Part shown: piece after piece, positions 3,399 to 62,185 of the stretch
How positions within the stretch are numbered: the stretch's first letter is position 1
How the letters are laid out: every line of letters starts with the position of its first letter
DNA from: Mimachlamys varia
Lineage: Eukaryota > Mollusca > Bivalvia > Pectinida > Pectinidae
Assembly: GCA_947623455.1 (NCBI GenBank)
Contig: OX392535.1
Span: 36,542,688-36,606,687, forward strand
DNA: 64,000 nucleotides
Direction of reading: 5' to 3'
Made by a program: the position numbers and the translations under genes
Notes under the pieces: model-generated
Seen by the model: only the letters and a program-made list of their open reading frames with translations
Told to the model about the DNA's origin: nothing
Databases searched by the model: none

Positions 3399-3520
3399 AC
3401 ACACATGTGCTGCACCTTTTAAATTTAGTAATAGATACAGTATGCTGAAAAAATGAATTACACTGCATCATACAGCTGTTTCGTCCTCCTAGGACTCCTC
3501 AGTGATGCTAGGGGCCAAAT
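3399..3520 (-). mobile_element. Hammerhead-ribozyme-bearing retroelement repeat, copy a
   Basis: Minus-strand order: GGCCCCTAGCATCA, hammerhead, then ATGATGCAGTGTAATTCA, a TTTTTTCAGCATACTGTATC-like stretch and GTGCAGCACATGTGTGTG. The same block occurs at 17640, 22840, 42625 and 51055. Confidence 0.8.
3465..3508 (-). ncRNA. hammerhead ribozyme, type I with minimal stem III (copy a)
   Basis: On the minus strand: stem I GCATCA/TGATGC; core CTGAGGA; stem II GTCCT-AGG-AGGAC; GAAA; a two-pair stem III around loop AGCT; then the UA cleavage site. All core bases required by the hammerhead consensus are present. Confidence 0.85.
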
Positions 3521-17639: not shown

Positions 17640-17760
17640 ACACACATATGCTGCATCTTTTTAATTTAGTAATAGATACAGCATACCGAAAAATTAAACT
17701 AAACTGTATCATACAGCTGTTTCGTCCTCCTAGGACTCTTCAGTGATGCTAGGGGCCAAA
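17640..17760 (-). mobile_element. Hammerhead-bearing retroelement repeat, copy b
   Basis: Same block as at 3399-3520, in the same orientation. Confidence 0.8.
17706..17749 (-). ncRNA. hammerhead ribozyme (copy b)
   Basis: Core CTGAAGA and GAAA intact, stem II GTCCT/AGGAC perfect, stem III loop AGCT. Stem I has one mismatch (GCATCA/TGATAC). Confidence 0.8.
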
Positions 17761-28297: not shown

Positions 28298-28445
28298 TGT
28301 AACCCTGGTAAATACTAGCTGCAATATACCGCTCGGCTAGATAGATCTTCTCTTTAGCTCAATCGGCTGAGCGTAAGATTAGTAGCCAGCTGTTCCGGGT
28401 TTGACTCCTAGCGGAGACATTAAAAAAATAATGACCTCTGTTACA
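28298..28445 (+). repeat. 5' LTR of TRIM-like element 1
   Basis: 148 bp, TGTAAC...GTTACA. The tRNA-like segment is about 28348-28418, with D-stem GCTC/GAGC and a partly paired T arm; acceptor pairing is about 5 of 7. Confidence 0.75.
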
Positions 28446-28554
28446 TATGGCGCCCACGTAGGGACCCGGGAATCATACTTAGGGATACTTGCAAAGGAAT
28501 CCCTATGGCCCCCGGAAAAAAACTCGAGACGAGTTCTTTCCTGGAGGGGAAATA

Positions 28555-28702
28555 TGTAACCCTGGTAGATACTAGCTGCAATATCCGCTCGGCTAGAGAG
28601 ATCTTCTTTTTAGCTAAATCGGTTGAGAGTAAGACTAGTAACCAGAGGTTCCGGGTTATACTCCTAGCGGAGGCATTTAAATGAATAATGACCTCTGTTA
28701 CA
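28555..28702 (+). repeat. 3' LTR of TRIM-like element 1
   Basis: 148 bp, same termini as the left copy, with scattered substitutions (B box decayed to GGGTTATACTCC). Preceded by the purine tract at 28542-28553. Confidence 0.75.
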
Positions 28703-28822
28703 AGGACTTTTGTTTGGTTTGGTGTGATTGTTTTTACGTCCTTTTAACACCCTGGGTTATTTTAATAAGACCTCCCGGTGTATGTGATGTGGTGTAAGTG
28801 TAATAGGAGAGGACAAATGCAC

Positions 28823-28894
28823 GGCCAGACCGGGGTTCGAACCCTGGACCTTCCGAACTCTAGACAGACGCTCAACCAATTGAGCTATCTAGTC
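28823..28894 (-). other. tRNA-like cloverleaf inside the TRIM 2 LTR (copy A)
   Basis: On the minus strand this 72-nt segment gives a near-complete tRNA fold: acceptor about 6 of 7 pairs, D stem GCTC/GAGC, anticodon stem 4 of 5 with loop CTAGAGT, and T stem 4 of 5 around TTCGAAC. The B box GGGTTCGAACCCC is perfect. It is part of the LTR, so probably a Pol III promoter module, not a free tRNA gene. Confidence 0.65.
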
Positions 28895-29072
28895 GCCGAA
28901 GATCGACCAGGTCTATATCCACTACATCCCTCCCCCTTCAGCGAAGTCTTTGACCTTGAAGACATCATAATTTGCGACCCAAGTTCGGGTATCCCCTTGC
29001 TAAGTATGCACCCAATATTTGAACCAGATATGGTCACAGGCACCAAATGTAACAGGAGAGGAAAAAATGAAC

Positions 29073-29144
29073 GGCCAGACCGGGGTTCGAACCCGAGACC
29101 TTCCAAACTTTAGACTGACGGTCAGCCCATTGAGCTATATAGTT
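29073..29144 (-). other. tRNA-like segment inside the TRIM 2 LTR (copy B)
   Basis: Equivalent of the copy at 28823-28894 with a few substitutions. A box TAGCTCAATGGG and B box GGGTTCGAACCCC are intact. Confidence 0.6.
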
Positions 29145-29242
29145 GCCAACGATCGACCCGGTCTAGATCCGCTACATAAGTATTGAATTGTGATACGTTC
29201 GTGTAAACCTCCTTCAATAGTCCGGATCTTTTGCAGATTTAA

Positions 29243-36480: not shown

Positions 36481-37520
36481 CAGTAACAACTTCAGACTCA
36501 TTTCTCAAAAGACGTTTGGGCGAAAATATTTATAAAACTTTACATAAGTGTTCGTTATAGTAAGAAGGTGGGAAAATGACATTAGGTTTTACGATCGGTA
36601 AATTCTCCTCTGATTGGTCAAAAGTTAACATTGGACAGTTTTGCTCAAATTGTGTACGTACATGTAGATGAAGTTTGATGATGCAAACCTAATTGCTGCG
36701 AGTTGGGGTCAGGGAACCTCTGTAATAGTTCCTGTTTATTTCTTAATTCGTAATGCTGAGTATGTACCCTCGCGGATTCTCATGCAGAAATTGTCAATCG
36801 CTTAAAATTACATGATATGTACTAATCATGGACATTTGTGGAGTTGTGTAACGCACGTTTAATATGACGTTTTTGTGTTGTGAAGGCGACATGTTGTTAC
36901 CTTCCGTTTTGTTTGTTCACATATTGTCAGCACTGTAGCAATGTCGTTCTTGCACATATTTCGATCAAATTTTGTATATTGGTAATGCATGAAAATACAT
37001 AGCGGCGTGTTTTAAGGTTGCGATGATTAAGACAAATCTTACTACATGTTGCATATAATTATTTTGTCATTGCTTTAACGGCTTCTTTCATGCGTATATT
37101 TTGATCAAACGTTTTCTACAGGTCACGCATGAGAAAATATTTAACGATATTAGGTTTCAGTGGTCCGCTGTTTTATTTTCAAATGCTTTTATTTTCGTCC
37201 TTGCTGCTTCATTCCATAGTCAAAATCAAGGTCATCGCTACTACATATATATAAACTCATTGATAATTTACTGGATGGTGTTCAATTTGTCGTCATGGCA
37301 AATGTTAAAGGAAATATAAATACCGTATTTAATCGTTTTAATTGTATACATCTTGATCAAAGAAAACAAACTGCACTGATCATACATATAAAAAAAAAAA
37401 AAAAACAGAAAACAAAAAAGATTATGTAAGTAATTAATGCACTATAAATTAATATCTATAAATATAGAAACTGTGGCACAAGATATGTTTCAACCTATTA
37501 ACTTATATATTTTTGTACAG
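36481..37520. other. upstream region of the EgtD-like gene; promoter or 5' exon not identified
   Basis: The first coding ATG is preceded by an acceptor-like sequence at 37511-37520, so the true promoter and a 5' exon may lie here or further upstream. A weakly repeated TTTCGATCAAA.TTTT..TA..GGT..TGCATGA stretch occurs at about 36960 and 37098. Confidence 0.4.
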
Positions 37521-37523
37521 AAC

Positions 37524-37700
37524 ATGGATGATACAAGTAGACAACTCTTGGTGAAAGGCCTGACATCCTTCCCGAAGTACATACCAACTTGGTACAATTA
37601 TGATGAAGTCGGATCCGAGCTAGAAGACAGATGTACCATTGACAACACAGGCTACTACTTAAGACGTAGCCAAATATGCATTCTGGAAACATCCATACAA
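37524..37700 (+). CDS. EgtD-like gene, coding exon 1
   Basis: Residues 1-59, ending in phase 0. The acceptor-like TTTTGTACAG lies just before (37511-37520) and the donor is CAA|GTAAGA. It holds the N-terminal substrate-side segment with YNYDEVGSELED and GYYLRRSQ. Bacterial relatives have roughly 15 more N-terminal residues, so this exon may not be the first coding one. Confidence 0.85.
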
Positions 37701-40700
37701 GTAAGAAATCATTATATATTTGTTCAAATAAGAACTTCAAACATGCAAACGTTGCGCTATTCCAAATCAGTGTTTGTTGGACCTTTCTTGACTCCGATAT
37801 TCCTCGTTGATGTTGTATGTACGCTGATAGCTTCAGAACTTTCAATAAGAAGAGAGCTAGTAGCTTTAGTCTTATTTAAGCTAGCAATAATGTCAGAAGA
37901 TACACAGAAGGTATTAAGAAAGGTCGAAGGAAAGCGCTTTCCAAAACAGACTTCTTGACAAGAATATGTAAATCATTGTTATTTCGATAGGAGTTTATTA
38001 ACGCCTATTATTTATTTATTAATTAATACAATACATTCCAATAAAATAAGTTATCGCTTTGATGATTGCCTTTGATCGTACGTATGTAAACTATCTTCTT
38101 TATTATTACTCTGATCTCCGGTGTATATTTATAACCCAATACTTACAGTCTACACTGACATTCACTCGATAACCTTTGTCGTGCAAACTATAGTTATTTT
38201 CCAACAACTATACTTGAGAACGTGCCAAATTTTCATGACGTGGACAATACATGTGGGCGGAACTATGCAAATTATTCAGTTCGAGTCACAATTGTCTGAC
38301 GTCATCAACAATGGACATGGGCGGGGTTAACCACGGCTAATGCAAACTTCATGCTGTTACATTTATATATAATATATAAACTTTATTTATTTTACAACAA
38401 TTATGAAACAAGCTATACAACTTATATTAATCACTCTTGTTGGCCCGGATGTTAGCGCGCGAGGGATCTTATTGTGGGAGGAAACCGGAGTACCCGGAGA
38501 AAACCCACGTGATCGGGCAGGTGACCCCATACCTTTTCACGTCCGATCGGGGAATCGAACCCCCACCGCCTTGGTGAAAGGCAAGTGTGCTATCCACTGC
38601 ACCACCCGACCATGCTGTTACATTTATTGAACCGTTTTCACGTTTGTAAGTTTGAAATGAAATTTATGTCCGCAAATGGGCCTATTTTGAAAAGAAATGT
38701 CATGGACCATTTACAGAAAAATACTGTAAATACAAGAATTAACCTTTGATTTTGTTTAGTTTATGAGGTCATAAATCCAATAGAGCAGTCAGTAAATTTA
38801 ATGTAAACGCTTCGCGTTCACGCAATTTACCTTGTGCTCCCTTGGATTTATGATATCATAACCTAAACAAAATCAAAGGTTAATCCTTAAAAGAAACACA
38901 GGAAAAGATCGGGAAATACCTTGGTTTAACGTAAAGTTGTTTGTGGTGGTTTGCTAACAAAGGAAAGTCAACATTTGCCGAACTTTGAGTGTGGTTACAT
39001 TTTGAGCAATTTACCCTTATCTGTCGATTTAAGGCTATTATGACCCATATGGCCTATCTCAATGATTTTGATAAAAGGTAGTTTATCCTTGACATTTTGA
39101 ATGTACAAAAGACAGAGAACAGGAACTTTATAATTTATAAGAAGATACAGTCGAGTCAAATAATGATTTTAAGTGCATCATATAGCTCTTTCGTACTTCT
39201 AGGACTGGTCAATGTAAGCTAGGACCTAAACAGTGAAGCCTATGAGACATACACTCTCCCTTTATTTCAATTTTCATAAAGTTCCAAATATTGAAAGTTT
39301 TCAACTGATTATCAAGACTTGGTACACTTAACGTCCGTATTCTAATCCCTGCCCCTATTAGATTAAATCGATTTATTGTACGTGGCATATAGGTTAACCT
39401 CGGGTGTTAACATACTCAATATGGGTGTATGAATACATTTTTATGGGTATTTTGTGGAAATATCCATTACAGGAGGCACAGTTGTCTAGTGGTAGGACGC
39501 CGGGCATGGGATCGAAAGGCGCGGGACTTGTGTTGTATTCTTGAACAAGATACTTTACTCTGCTTATTACAGTCTACTCAGCTGTAAATGAGTATGTTGT
39601 TTTGGTAGTGCTTGAAATTGTAGAATGCTAGCTATGAACGCCGAAATGGCAGCACCAGTTGTATGTCCCAAGGGAGGTGACGATATTGGCTGGTTACTAA
39701 GGCCCTACAACCTCGGATAATAATTTGTGACGACCTTTAAGATTGTGATAAAGACTGATTATTATCAGTCACTCTGCTCTTTTTGTCTAATGCTCCATTT
39801 CTTCTGTTAGACTATCGGTAACATTTAAAAAATATCAGTGTTCCTTTCAAAGCCGGAGCAAAGGTATACGATTTTTTTTTAAACATTTCGAAAATTGATT
39901 TTTTTTCGAAATGTTTTTTCTGTTTGCGTCAAGATTGCTGATTAAAGGTATAAGATGCATGAATATTATTTTCTGAAACGTTAGTGCATATGACATATTT
40001 ATTATAATTACACTGTTGCTTCATGGATTGGTGGGGCAAAACTTTTGTCTTTGTTATATATGCGAGTTGTCAAATTAATATTACTTGTTTCCAGTATTAC
40101 TGTAATCGGTTTTTTAACATATATATTCCATCTCTTGTATTTATTACAGGAAATTATTCCATCCGTTCCGTACGATCTCTCGTTGGTGGACTTGGGCAGC
40201 GGAAGTTGTTCCAAGACGAGATATTTTCTGGATGAAATGCTGCTTCGACAAAAGCAATTAACGTTTTACCCTGTAGACATCTCAGGAGGTACAGCATGTT
40301 TTCAAATTTCTGTAGTAGAAATTATAACGCCATAAATAGATGATAGTTCTACGACGTAATGTGATTGTCTCAGTTATGAAAATTGCACCACAAAAGTGAA
40401 AACATTGCCTTCCTAATATCAGGATTTAACGTCATATTTGTTTTAACTTTTATAGAAATGACTTTCAATCCATATACAGTATTTACATTTTTACGGATAA
40501 CCAGTACAATTTGACAAAAGGAATCAAATCCAATTTATTGAATATTGAAATTTAGATTTTATACAAAAGATATATTCCATACCTTTCTCGTAAATCATGA
40601 GAATGGCAATTGAATAGTAAATTTCTTGTTCCTTAACACATGTAATGTACCTAGGTTTTTGAAGTTTCCAAATATTTTCACTGTAGATTTTCTGATGAAA

Positions 40701-43700
40701 ACGGTGGAACAGATTTCAAGTGAATACGGACAGAGATTAACGGTATCACCTGTGACAGCCAATTATGAAAGCGGAATAGAAAAACTAAGGTAGGCCAACT
40801 CAGTATGTAAACATGCAATAAACATATTTATTGAACCTTCAATAATTCAAGTAAACATGTATAGTTTACGTTCATCTTGATGCACAACTTAGCTTATTTG
40901 AAAATTACTCACCTTTAACGTTTATGAAAAATGTTCGTCCACCTTTAGATATATTTTTTTTTAATTTTGTGTGAAAAACATTTCAATATCATTTGGTATT
41001 AATTGCGCAATACAATTCATTTTTAGCCTATAGCAAACGGTAATATATTGATTTGATATACAGGATGTAATTGTGATTATAGCAGAGTCATAAGTTGTAT
41101 GATCTCCATGCACTGATCGTCTGCTCAGTTACTGCTGGAATCTTATAGTAACATTTGTATTACTTTCTGTATATATGGATCATCTTGTTACACATTAGTT
41201 TTAACATGTGTCTGAAATAAAAAGTCTTCTAATAATGCATTCCCCCCTCCAGTCGTCCCTCTCCTTCCTTGTCTATTTTTGCCAACCATCTTAATGTTAT
41301 ACCATCCTACTGCCAATTTCAATGGTAAAGAGACGAATTGATATAAGTACTTGTTTTCGACTCCTAAATATTGATTGATGTATTGACTGTATATTTGCCA
41401 TTTATTGACAAAAAACTGTTTAAACTATATTTAAGTGAAAATATGTGATTGTTTTGTAGACATTGTCAGTTTTTGTCCCAATTAAATTACCATTAAATCA
41501 TATCGTACATTAGTTTCTACATTTCTGCATGTCAGCTGTGCCGATATTTTGCTTTACTACTGAATAAACTAGTAATTATCCTATGCTAGCTTAAATTCGT
41601 GTCGATAAATGACGAATTTCATTTTTTTTTTCTGATTACATTTTCAGATGCGAGGATGGTCCAAAGATTATTTTATGGTTTGGTAGCATCATCAATCTGT
41701 CCTACGAAGACCAAGTGGATAAACTGAAGCTGATATCAAGTATGATGACAGGTATGTTGCATCCTTGAAACTACTTGGGTTACGCTCTCTCACTTTCTCT
41801 TTTCCCCTGAATATGCCCTGATGAACTCAAAGGCTTACGACACAAGAACTCGACAGAGACATATTGAGGATGATTATGAGCAAATTAGACTTTTTAGAAA
41901 ATGCTCAATTTGATAAGCCTTCTTGTTGTAAATGAAAAAGCTGCCTCAGTTTTGACTTTGAGGACTTTACATTTGCTTGGAAGTGACCAAAATTAACATG
42001 GCAGGTGTCGTTCATGAAGCGGAAGACTCTTACTCGGCTTTTGATTTTTTACATTTTCGGAGATAACCGTGAACATCTCTACTTTGTTCATATTGTTTCC
42101 CTAGCTTACTCGATTTTGAGTTGGGATTGTTGTTCTGTTGACGCTTTGGTATTCCCTATTTTTGCATTCTCACCAAACAGATTTAAGCATAGCGACTCGA
42201 CATACACGTACATAACTCGAACATTACAAATAAAATGATATATTTATGACGAATATAATAACAAGGGTATTCGTGTTTTTTTTAATTTATCTATTTTGTT
42301 TGTTTTTAGAGTGGGGGGGGGGGGGCACGACATAATTCGTTTTAACCTATATTACAACTCGAATTTAGAAAAATGTTGAATGGAAAAATAATAAACACAA
42401 AAACAACAAAACAAATCACCAATGGATTATTCACGAAATGAAATAGATAAAACCACTATTTAATGAGTACGTTAGTTGAAAAACATAATTTATCTATTTT
42501 CAATTGTTACCGATTTTATTTTAATCTTAGTATAACAGAACTGGTGACATATCGACCAAGAAGGAATTGTTTACGCGTTTGATCCCTCTACTTCTAGATT
42601 AGTTTAGAACTTTCGGATTCGCACCTTTTGGCCCCTAGCATCACTGAATAGTCCTAGGAGGACGAAACAGCTGTATGATGCAATTTAATTAATATTTTTT
42701 GGCGTACTGTATCTATTAATAAATTTAAATGGTTCTGCATATATGTGTGTTACGTCATCTTTTGTATAAGTAGAAATAACATAGAAGCACTTGTCTGAAT
42801 TTTTAACATTTAGATTGAGGTAAATGAAATGTTAAATTAAAGTGTATTCTTTCAGATAGATGTCATCTGGTGTTTAGTGTCGATATAACCCAAGACAAGA
42901 AAACAGTGCTTCAGGCATACAACGACGAAGGCGGTAAGAATGCAATAAATTAAAATTGTGCATGAAATAAAACAAGATATTACGATTTTGGAAAAAAAAT
43001 CACAAATTAAAAACCATATAAACGATTATGTCTTATAAATAAATAAATAAATAAATATAAATATATATATAAATATACAATATTTGATATAGCGCCCTAT
43101 CTAGCTAACATAAGCCACTCTAAAGCGCTTTACAGTACATAGATATACAATTCTTATACAATCAATACAATTAACACATACAGTTCTATCATATACAATT
43201 CTGAGGAGTTCGCAGGAGCTGCCATATCGGGCGCTAACTACTTGTCCTATACCACCTGGCTAATATCTCCATATGTGTGTGTATGCATGCGTGTGTGCTG
43301 GAGATGAATTGTGTTCTGTTTGTAGTGGGACCGTGTTTCCAACGGCATCTTTTATAGTGCCACCACACTTGAATGCTACATCACAGATACTGCAACATCC
43401 ACCCCAGACCATTTTAAACTCCACCTGGGTTGTTGGAGTTGTGTGGGCAGGAGAAAAACACTTTCTCTGAATGTTCCATGCGTATGACGATTACGGGGAT
43501 CGAACCCCGGCCGCCTGCATGGAAGGCCGGAGTGTTACCCACTCGACCAATCCGCCCATTATGATTCATTTATTTATCTAGTTTTGTATTATTATCGAGC
43601 TTAATGAATGATGGAGATTGTAAGACTTTCTGTGTTTGTGCATTAGAAAAAAGACTATTATCCACTACAAATTAATAGAGCTCTATATAAATGTTGAACA

Positions 43701-62044: not shown

Positions 62045-62185
62045 TTTTACCAGATGTAGTATACAGTCGATATGAATACAATTTGGGTGACAGATAATTA
62101 ATCATGTCGCCCTAACGGGCGACATTCTATTTATCTGTCACCCAAATTGTATTCATATCGACTGTATACTACATCTGGTAAGAGT
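62045..62185. mobile_element. perfect-arm foldback (~140 bp)
   Basis: Arms of about 50 bp (CCAGATGTAGTATACAGTCG, ATACAATTTGGGTGACAGAT) around a short centre containing GTCGCCC/GGGCGAC. Confidence 0.85.

Follow-up and report, generated by a model that had tools for sequence, protein, structure and literature searches.

What is the 378-bp structure on the minus strand at 28799-29176, in which two direct repeats, each with a tRNA-like block, enclose a short interior, and by which route could such a structure have spread? The locus belongs to the scallop Mimachlamys varia (Pectinida, Pectinidae) and lies in a stretch of 64,000 nucleotides of chromosome 9 (36542688-36606687), which was analysed as a whole and is referred to here as the window. 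The structure is denoted element 2 and its relatives elsewhere in the genome family 2. Element 2, which is old and decayed, is very probably a Helenus-type TRIM, that is, a short LTR retrotransposon that has no proteins of its own and carries a tRNA-gene-like Pol III promoter in its LTRs.

Read along the minus strand, the element has the order CTTA, 5' LTR (129 bp), interior (121 bp), 3' LTR (128 bp), CTTA. The 5' LTR occupies 29048-29176 (-) and is followed after 2 nt by the PBS-like site TGGTGCCTGTGACCA (29031-29045, -). The interior (28927-29047, -) lies between the LTRs and ends in a polypurine tract, AAGGGGGAGGGA (28927-28938, -), directly upstream of the 3' LTR (28799-28926, -; TGTAG...TTACA). 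The two copies of the 4-bp target-site duplication (TSD), TAAG on the plus strand and CTTA on the minus strand, adjoin the 3' LTR at 28795-28798 (+) and the 5' LTR at 29177-29180 (+). The original prediction had named this LTR-interior-LTR organization, the PBS-like site, the purine tract and the TAAG duplication, and all of them hold almost to the base.

The LTRs of element 2 are identical at 110 of 128 aligned positions, with one gap, 8 transitions and 10 transversions; the resulting K2P distance of 0.156 points to an old insertion. When element 2 is compared with the window by blastn, each LTR retrieves its partner at E ~1e-37, so that the repeat is not a chance one. The LTRs are identical over at most 24 consecutive nt, at box B, a length that 27% of shuffles reach and that is thus at chance level. 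The interior is without sign of coding, with 5 stops in the single minus-strand frame read across the whole element; the opposite strand contains a 114-aa stop-to-stop frame at 28769-29113 (+).

Element 2 has numerous relatives in the genome. A search with its sequence gave 2904 candidates, the best 40 of which were scored and 30 loci fetched, namely the window copy and 29 others; the query itself is LTR-interior-LTR and the best-scoring copies were taken, so the sample is biased. The LTR-interior-LTR unit is present in all 29 other loci (among the best 40 of 2904), and in most copies the repeats are 128-129 bp and the interior 121-123 bp long. An exact 4-bp TSD flanks 15 of these 29 best-scoring copies, compared with 7 of 812 mispaired-flank controls, and at least three of the four TSD bases match in 18 of the 29; 14 copies have no exact TSD, at least four of them being members of tandem LTR arrays (L014, L018, L020, L024). 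The LTRs are identical in 7 of the 29 other best-scoring copies, with a median LTR identity of 0.984, and a shared 14-mer occurs in 5 of 812 flank comparisons. With identical LTRs and 4-bp target duplications in some of its copies, family 2 has been recently active. The genome thus holds further copies, and the 29 fetched are of the two-LTR form, about half of them with exact 4-bp TSDs, and not SINE-like, as the original prediction had it.

The 25-mer at the 3' end of the LTR has 1625 genomic matches at up to 2 mismatches, with a sister subfamily counted in, and the reversed control has 0. Two single LTR ends were inspected: one (L097) is a 5' LTR followed by a PBS-like site, and the other (L098) has no PBS-like site after the LTR and lies between CAAT and CAAG, with no exact TSD. 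In the sister subfamily (L095, L096), the LTR spacing is 218 bp, the LTRs share 124 of 128 positions with those of L003, a family 2 copy, and the exact TSD TATG is found at both loci. Its 3' interior and purine tract are those of family 2, its interior measures 90 nt and its PBS, TTTG(G/A)TGCCCAATGA, is different; with the LTR and the purine tract preserved, the primer site has thus been exchanged. The main text of PMC10886601 describes switches of primer in the Helenus elements of fungi and infers them in other groups.

The tRNA-like module that gives the LTRs their character is most readily seen in the 3' LTR of element 2 (28822-28894, -), where it has the anticodon AGA and a short variable loop. 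ARAGORN calls a tRNA at 28821-28895 (-), and the Rfam model RF00005 matches 28822-28894 (-) with 40.7 bits (gathering score 29; E 3.5e-5), in each case within the window's 3' LTR copy only. The stem pairing anticipated from the letters (about 6/7 acceptor, 4/4 D, 4/5 anticodon and 4/5 T pairs) fits this same module. Its boxes A and B lie at 28876-28887 and 28833-28843 (-), as placed by what we take to be the consensus of the two boxes, the one used for scoring both element 2 modules. The 5' LTR module (29083-29137, -) is too decayed for a tRNA call by ARAGORN or Rfam; its box A (29127-29137) and box B (29083-29093), found by consensus scan, have 0 mismatches to the same presumed consensus. Neither module of element 2 folds into a cloverleaf at minimum energy (z -2.99 for the 3' LTR and -0.54 for the 5' LTR). 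Past the 5' LTR module lies a Pol III terminator-like run of six T (29062-29067, -), represented by T5 in most other copies, and the T-run has been lost from the 3' LTR of the window copy. The window includes a further tRNA-like block at 43485-43556 (-), with 26.7 bits, below the gathering score.

In the other copies scanned, the module scores higher than in the window copy. In both LTRs of 10 other copies, the Rfam tRNA score ranges from 42.5 to 60.9 bits and reaches at least 54.3 in 17 of the 20 modules; the 30 best-scoring loci have 60 LTR modules, and ARAGORN recognizes a tRNA in 54 of these, with the anticodon AGA in 52 and AAA and CGA in one each. A T5 run sits four bases (TGCA) past the module in the 3' LTR of all 29 other best-scoring copies, and T4 or T5 follows the 5' LTR module in 28 of the 29. 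Judged by sequence, the module together with T5 has the make-up of a tRNA-gene-like cassette, a near-complete tRNA gene with a Pol III-type terminator. The conservation of the boxes counts against the Pol III model: the mean minority fraction across family 2 copies is 0.0125 for box A and 0.0288 for box B, as compared with 0.0221 for the whole LTR, so that box B is no more conserved than the LTR at large and box A only somewhat more. The interiors of all 30 best-scoring copies are free of T4, a feature that was considered as a sign of Pol III and dismissed, 41-61% of the shuffles of four interiors being equally T4-free.

A tRNA-like head at the start of a repeat is also the mark of tRNA-derived SINEs, which have no LTRs and depend on a tail for their insertion by non-LTR elements, with long TSDs, so that element 2 might be a pair of tRNA-headed SINEs in chance tandem that mimic LTRs. 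The window does contain a SINE-like element in contrast to the TRIMs (38350-38627, -), which has a body of 244 bp flanked on either side by the 17-bp direct repeat ATAAATGTAACAGCATG, and a tRNA-like head at 38544-38611 (-) whose 25.7 bits fall short of the gathering score of 29. A chance pair is scarcely credible, the genome-wide copies contradicting it: all 29 other best-scoring copies repeat the complete LTR-interior-LTR unit, their TSDs are 4 bp as against the long TSDs of target-primed insertion, just 1 of the 29 has an A6 run 15 nt or less from the 3' end, and the termini TGTA...TTACA are combined with a PBS-like site and a purine tract. It is likewise very improbable, though a shade less so, that the LTR unit is a working tRNA-Ser-AGA gene dispersed by a TRIM, for all that the ARAGORN calls are nearly uniform in anticodon and the module with its T5 resembles a full tRNA gene. 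A tRNA-Ser requires a long variable arm, whereas the variable loop of the family 2 module has 5 nt, and even the young copy L002 retains an A-C mismatch in the acceptor stem and a T-T mismatch in the anticodon stem. A true tRNA-Ser is therefore unlikely, and a functional one is rejected on structure, with no long arm and with mismatched acceptor and anticodon stems. Isotype conflicts are, moreover, noted for many Helenus families in the main text of Kojima (PMC10886601).

More weight, if still not much, attaches to a TRIM of the same structure that is transcribed by Pol II, with the tRNA block as a frozen passenger, left by an old SINE insertion, that has no promoter role. Pol II would not be hindered by the T5 terminator, boxes A and B do not stand clearly above the conservation of the whole LTR, and the family of the neighbouring element 1, discussed below, retains only a degenerate module. 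A passenger would, however, need neither the high tRNA scores of most of the scanned modules nor the preserved T5, and the published Helenus families retain boxes A and B, according to the main text of PMC10886601. A Pol II-transcribed element of this kind is accordingly an unlikely, if not negligible, alternative to the Helenus-type TRIM with a Pol III promoter.

The primer-binding site of family 2 gives an indication of how the element would be reverse transcribed. The PBS of element 2, TGGTGCCTGTGACCA, presumably represents the complement of the 3' end of tRNA-His, which we take to be TGGTGCCGTGACCA, with one extra base. In the 30 best-scoring family 2 loci, the 5' LTR is followed by TT and then by TGGTGCATGTGACCA in 13, TGGTGCCTGTGACCA in 8 and other variants in 9. 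Most of the sampled sites carry an extra base relative to the tRNA-His complement that we assume, and many also a substitution; the exact form occurs at one of the 30 loci (L023) and further at L085 and L089. The exact 13-mer of the tRNA-His PBS has 124 matches in the genome, against 4 for the control. Among 10 such sites that were fetched, five resemble autonomous LTR elements (L081, L086, L087, L088, L090), three belong to family 2 (L083, L085, L089) and two are neither (L082, L084). One of the five (L088) is placed in this group solely because it resembles L086 at the PBS and in the sequence preceding it; the longest of its downstream frames has 50 aa. A retrotransposon gag domain is recognized by Pfam in L081, L086 and L087, and no domain in L090. 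Pieces 2.5-3 kb downstream on the same strand, tied to L086, L081 and L090 by distance, contain reverse transcriptase (RT) and RNase H in 3 of 3 cases; an integrase zinc-binding domain is found in those of L086 and L081, and the integrase core follows RT in that of L086. An RT ahead of integrase is the arrangement of Ty3/Gypsy elements, and these gag/RT elements with a tRNA-His PBS are possible helpers of family 2.

The sequence ahead of the PBS in two Gypsy-type families, CTACTACA and CTATTACA, resembles the LTR ends of family 2, CTGTTACA/CTATTACA. A Gypsy family with the interior or the LTR of family 2 was not found among the tRNA-His-PBS elements examined. Two PBS sites 8.7 kb apart, considered as marks of an LTR pair of one Gypsy-type element, belong to two different families. 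At one locus (L083), TT and then 25 bases identical to what we take to be the tRNA-His 3' region come after a single family 2 LTR, and the 1.2 kb of sequence examined contains no second LTR; the same 25-base stretch is found in the L081-type PBS. Such a locus could have arisen when reverse transcription ran on into the primer, or by recombination with an element that has an L081-type PBS. At C11:33895641-33924371, at least 9 matches to the tRNA-His PBS 13-mer recur at a spacing of ~3191 bp, probably from an LTR element repeated there in tandem, and L088 is part of one unit.

Element 2 lies close to another element of its kind, element 1 (28298-28702, +), with LTRs at 28298-28445 and 28555-28702, a PBS-like site at 28448-28464 and flanks ATGA/AGGA that form an imperfect TSD. 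The genome search for its relatives gave 1296 candidates, the best 40 of which were scored and 30 loci examined. An exact TSD is found in 18 of the 29 other best-scoring loci, against 32 of 812 mispaired comparisons, several of the TSDs being TATA, and the LTRs are identical in 12 of the 29; these loci are not all independent, because L040-L042 have flanking bases in common within 11 kb and L051/L052 overlap. The element 1 PBS, TGGCGCCCACGTAGGGA, presumably corresponds to tRNA-Lys. The 30 loci have no T4 in the 5' LTR or interior, and the module has no Rfam match in the 6 loci scanned.

The two families were aligned through one young copy of each, with 1000 shuffles for comparison. The original prediction had called them unrelated, which is true of the part of the LTR before the module, where 519 of 1000 shuffles are as good. 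It does not extend to the modules, for which none of 1000 shuffles scores as well, a likeness that any two tRNAs might show, or to the LTR terminus CTGTTACA: the last 8 bases of the tails are common, and 25 of 1000 shuffles align as well. A weak likeness between the interiors is matched by 14 of 1000 shuffles. To judge from these alignments, element 1 and element 2 are separate families of one design, whose modules may have been recruited independently, one of the two readings offered in the original prediction; the family 2 LTR carries a near-complete tRNA gene and T5, whereas element 1 shows neither. In 3 kb of flank at each of the 29 other element 1 loci, a clear family 2 neighbour is seen at L033 and weak or partial ones at L037, L050 and L056, and the checked flanks of the 29 other family 2 loci have no element 1 neighbour, counts too small for any claim that one family targets the other.

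The window contains a third LTR-like relic (1471-1609, -), which ends in TTTCTTTCCTGTTACA and has the A and B boxes of a tRNA. It sits within a young dispersed repeat that extends from the window start, or earlier, to ~1766; the best 40 of 1266 candidates cover the 201-bp query in full, at 99-100%. Two matches to the type I hammerhead ribozyme, at 17706-17749 (-; 34.4 bits) and 3465-3508 (-; 31.8 bits), pass permissive filters only, the gathering score being 34. A 97-bp near-palindrome at 62066-62162, to which microRNA models align on either strand with scores under their gathering thresholds, is perhaps a MITE. At 37434-40332 (+), two frames match consecutive parts of Methyltransf_33 (histidine-specific methyltransferase) and are probably exons of one gene.

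For family 2 as a Helenus-type TRIM, we infer Pol III transcription, priming by tRNA-His and mobilisation in trans. Pol III would start just upstream of the 5' LTR module. Pol III should be halted by the T5 past this module and not reach the interior; full-length RNA therefore has to come from read-through or from another promoter. In the route envisaged here, the T-run would be passed in a minority of rounds, and the read-through RNA would cross the interior and end at the T-run past the 3' LTR module; R would then be approximately the module itself, with ~14 nt of U5 after it. The sequence of the PBS suggests that minus-strand synthesis starts from a tRNA of the cell, most likely tRNA-His, and the purine tract would prime the plus strand. 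Reverse transcriptase, RNase H and integrase would be supplied in trans by a Ty3/Gypsy-type element of the same genome, as the common PBS suggests. The genomic footprint shows that integration yields 4-bp target duplications and took place recently enough for the LTRs of some copies to be identical.

A bolder and rather improbable proposal is that the complete tRNA-gene cassette is kept in the LTRs of young copies, that every LTR would give rise to a tRNA-like RNA, short and terminated, along with rare read-through genomic RNA, and that the terminated RNA or the terminal tRNA folds may act in the cycle. Candidate roles are that they may define R, protect the ends of the RNA or set the ratio of short to full-length transcripts.

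TRIMs with tRNA-like LTRs have been described as Helenus (Kojima 2024, PMC10886601), with Argopecten, Mizuhopecten and Pecten among the hosts; the main text gives a length range of 311-1263 bp, 4-bp TSDs in animals, and bivalve families with tRNA-His or tRNA-Lys primers and Gypsy partners. In Helenus the PBS after the 5' LTR pairs with the 3' end of a tRNA or, among fungi, with its anticodon loop, and the LTR module is not complementary to the PBS of its own element. The broad class of 'tRNA-TRIMs' suggested in the original prediction was thus rightly conceived and already in print, as Helenus/TRIMp3, in that same article. Like the bivalve families of Helenus, element 2 is of TRIM size (378 bp), has no interior proteins and has a PBS-like site, a polypurine tract, a 4-bp TSD and a host from Pectinidae; both LTRs of family 2 contain a block with the box A TAGCT...TGG and the box B GGTTC, and the family 2 PBS resembles the tRNA-His type, as in Gypsy, where Helenus has tRNA-His or tRNA-Lys. 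Mimachlamys varia is absent from Table 1 of PMC10886601, and family 2, compared by description, is probably a new family of the published Helenus design. A literature search found no description of Helenus/TRIMp3 beyond PMC10886601. The main text of that article mentions terminators only for Cassandra, and a term search of it found no contrast between families with terminator-bearing and terminator-free modules.

Two other groups invite comparison. Cassandra of plants and Ajax of nemerteans, TRIMp3 elements with 5S rRNA sequence in the LTRs (main text of PMC10886601), resemble family 2 in having the promoter of a small-RNA gene within TRIM LTRs and differ in the gene, 5S rRNA instead of tRNA, in the hosts and, for Ajax, in the TSD of 5 bp. 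The biv-TRIM elements (Satovic 2019) are, like family 2, short protein-free LTR elements of bivalves and occur in tandem arrays; the available text of PMC6934838 gives repeats of 202-218 bp, an interior of 77-80 bp, the polypurine tract GGGGAGA and no clear PBS, and reports no tRNA block in the LTRs. The repeats and interior of family 2 fall outside these sizes, and membership in biv-TRIM was rejected.

For the annotation of this genome, the consequence is that family 2 copies inflate tRNA gene counts, because ARAGORN takes 54 of 60 of their LTR modules for tRNAs. The contrast between family 2, with a tRNA gene and a terminator, and element 1, with neither, makes it testable how a Pol III-driven LTR element passes its own 5' terminator. 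By an independent route, from raw sequence and in a scallop outside the published table, the analysis confirms that TRIMs with tRNA-like LTRs are real and recently active, and that a single genome holds more than one family of them.
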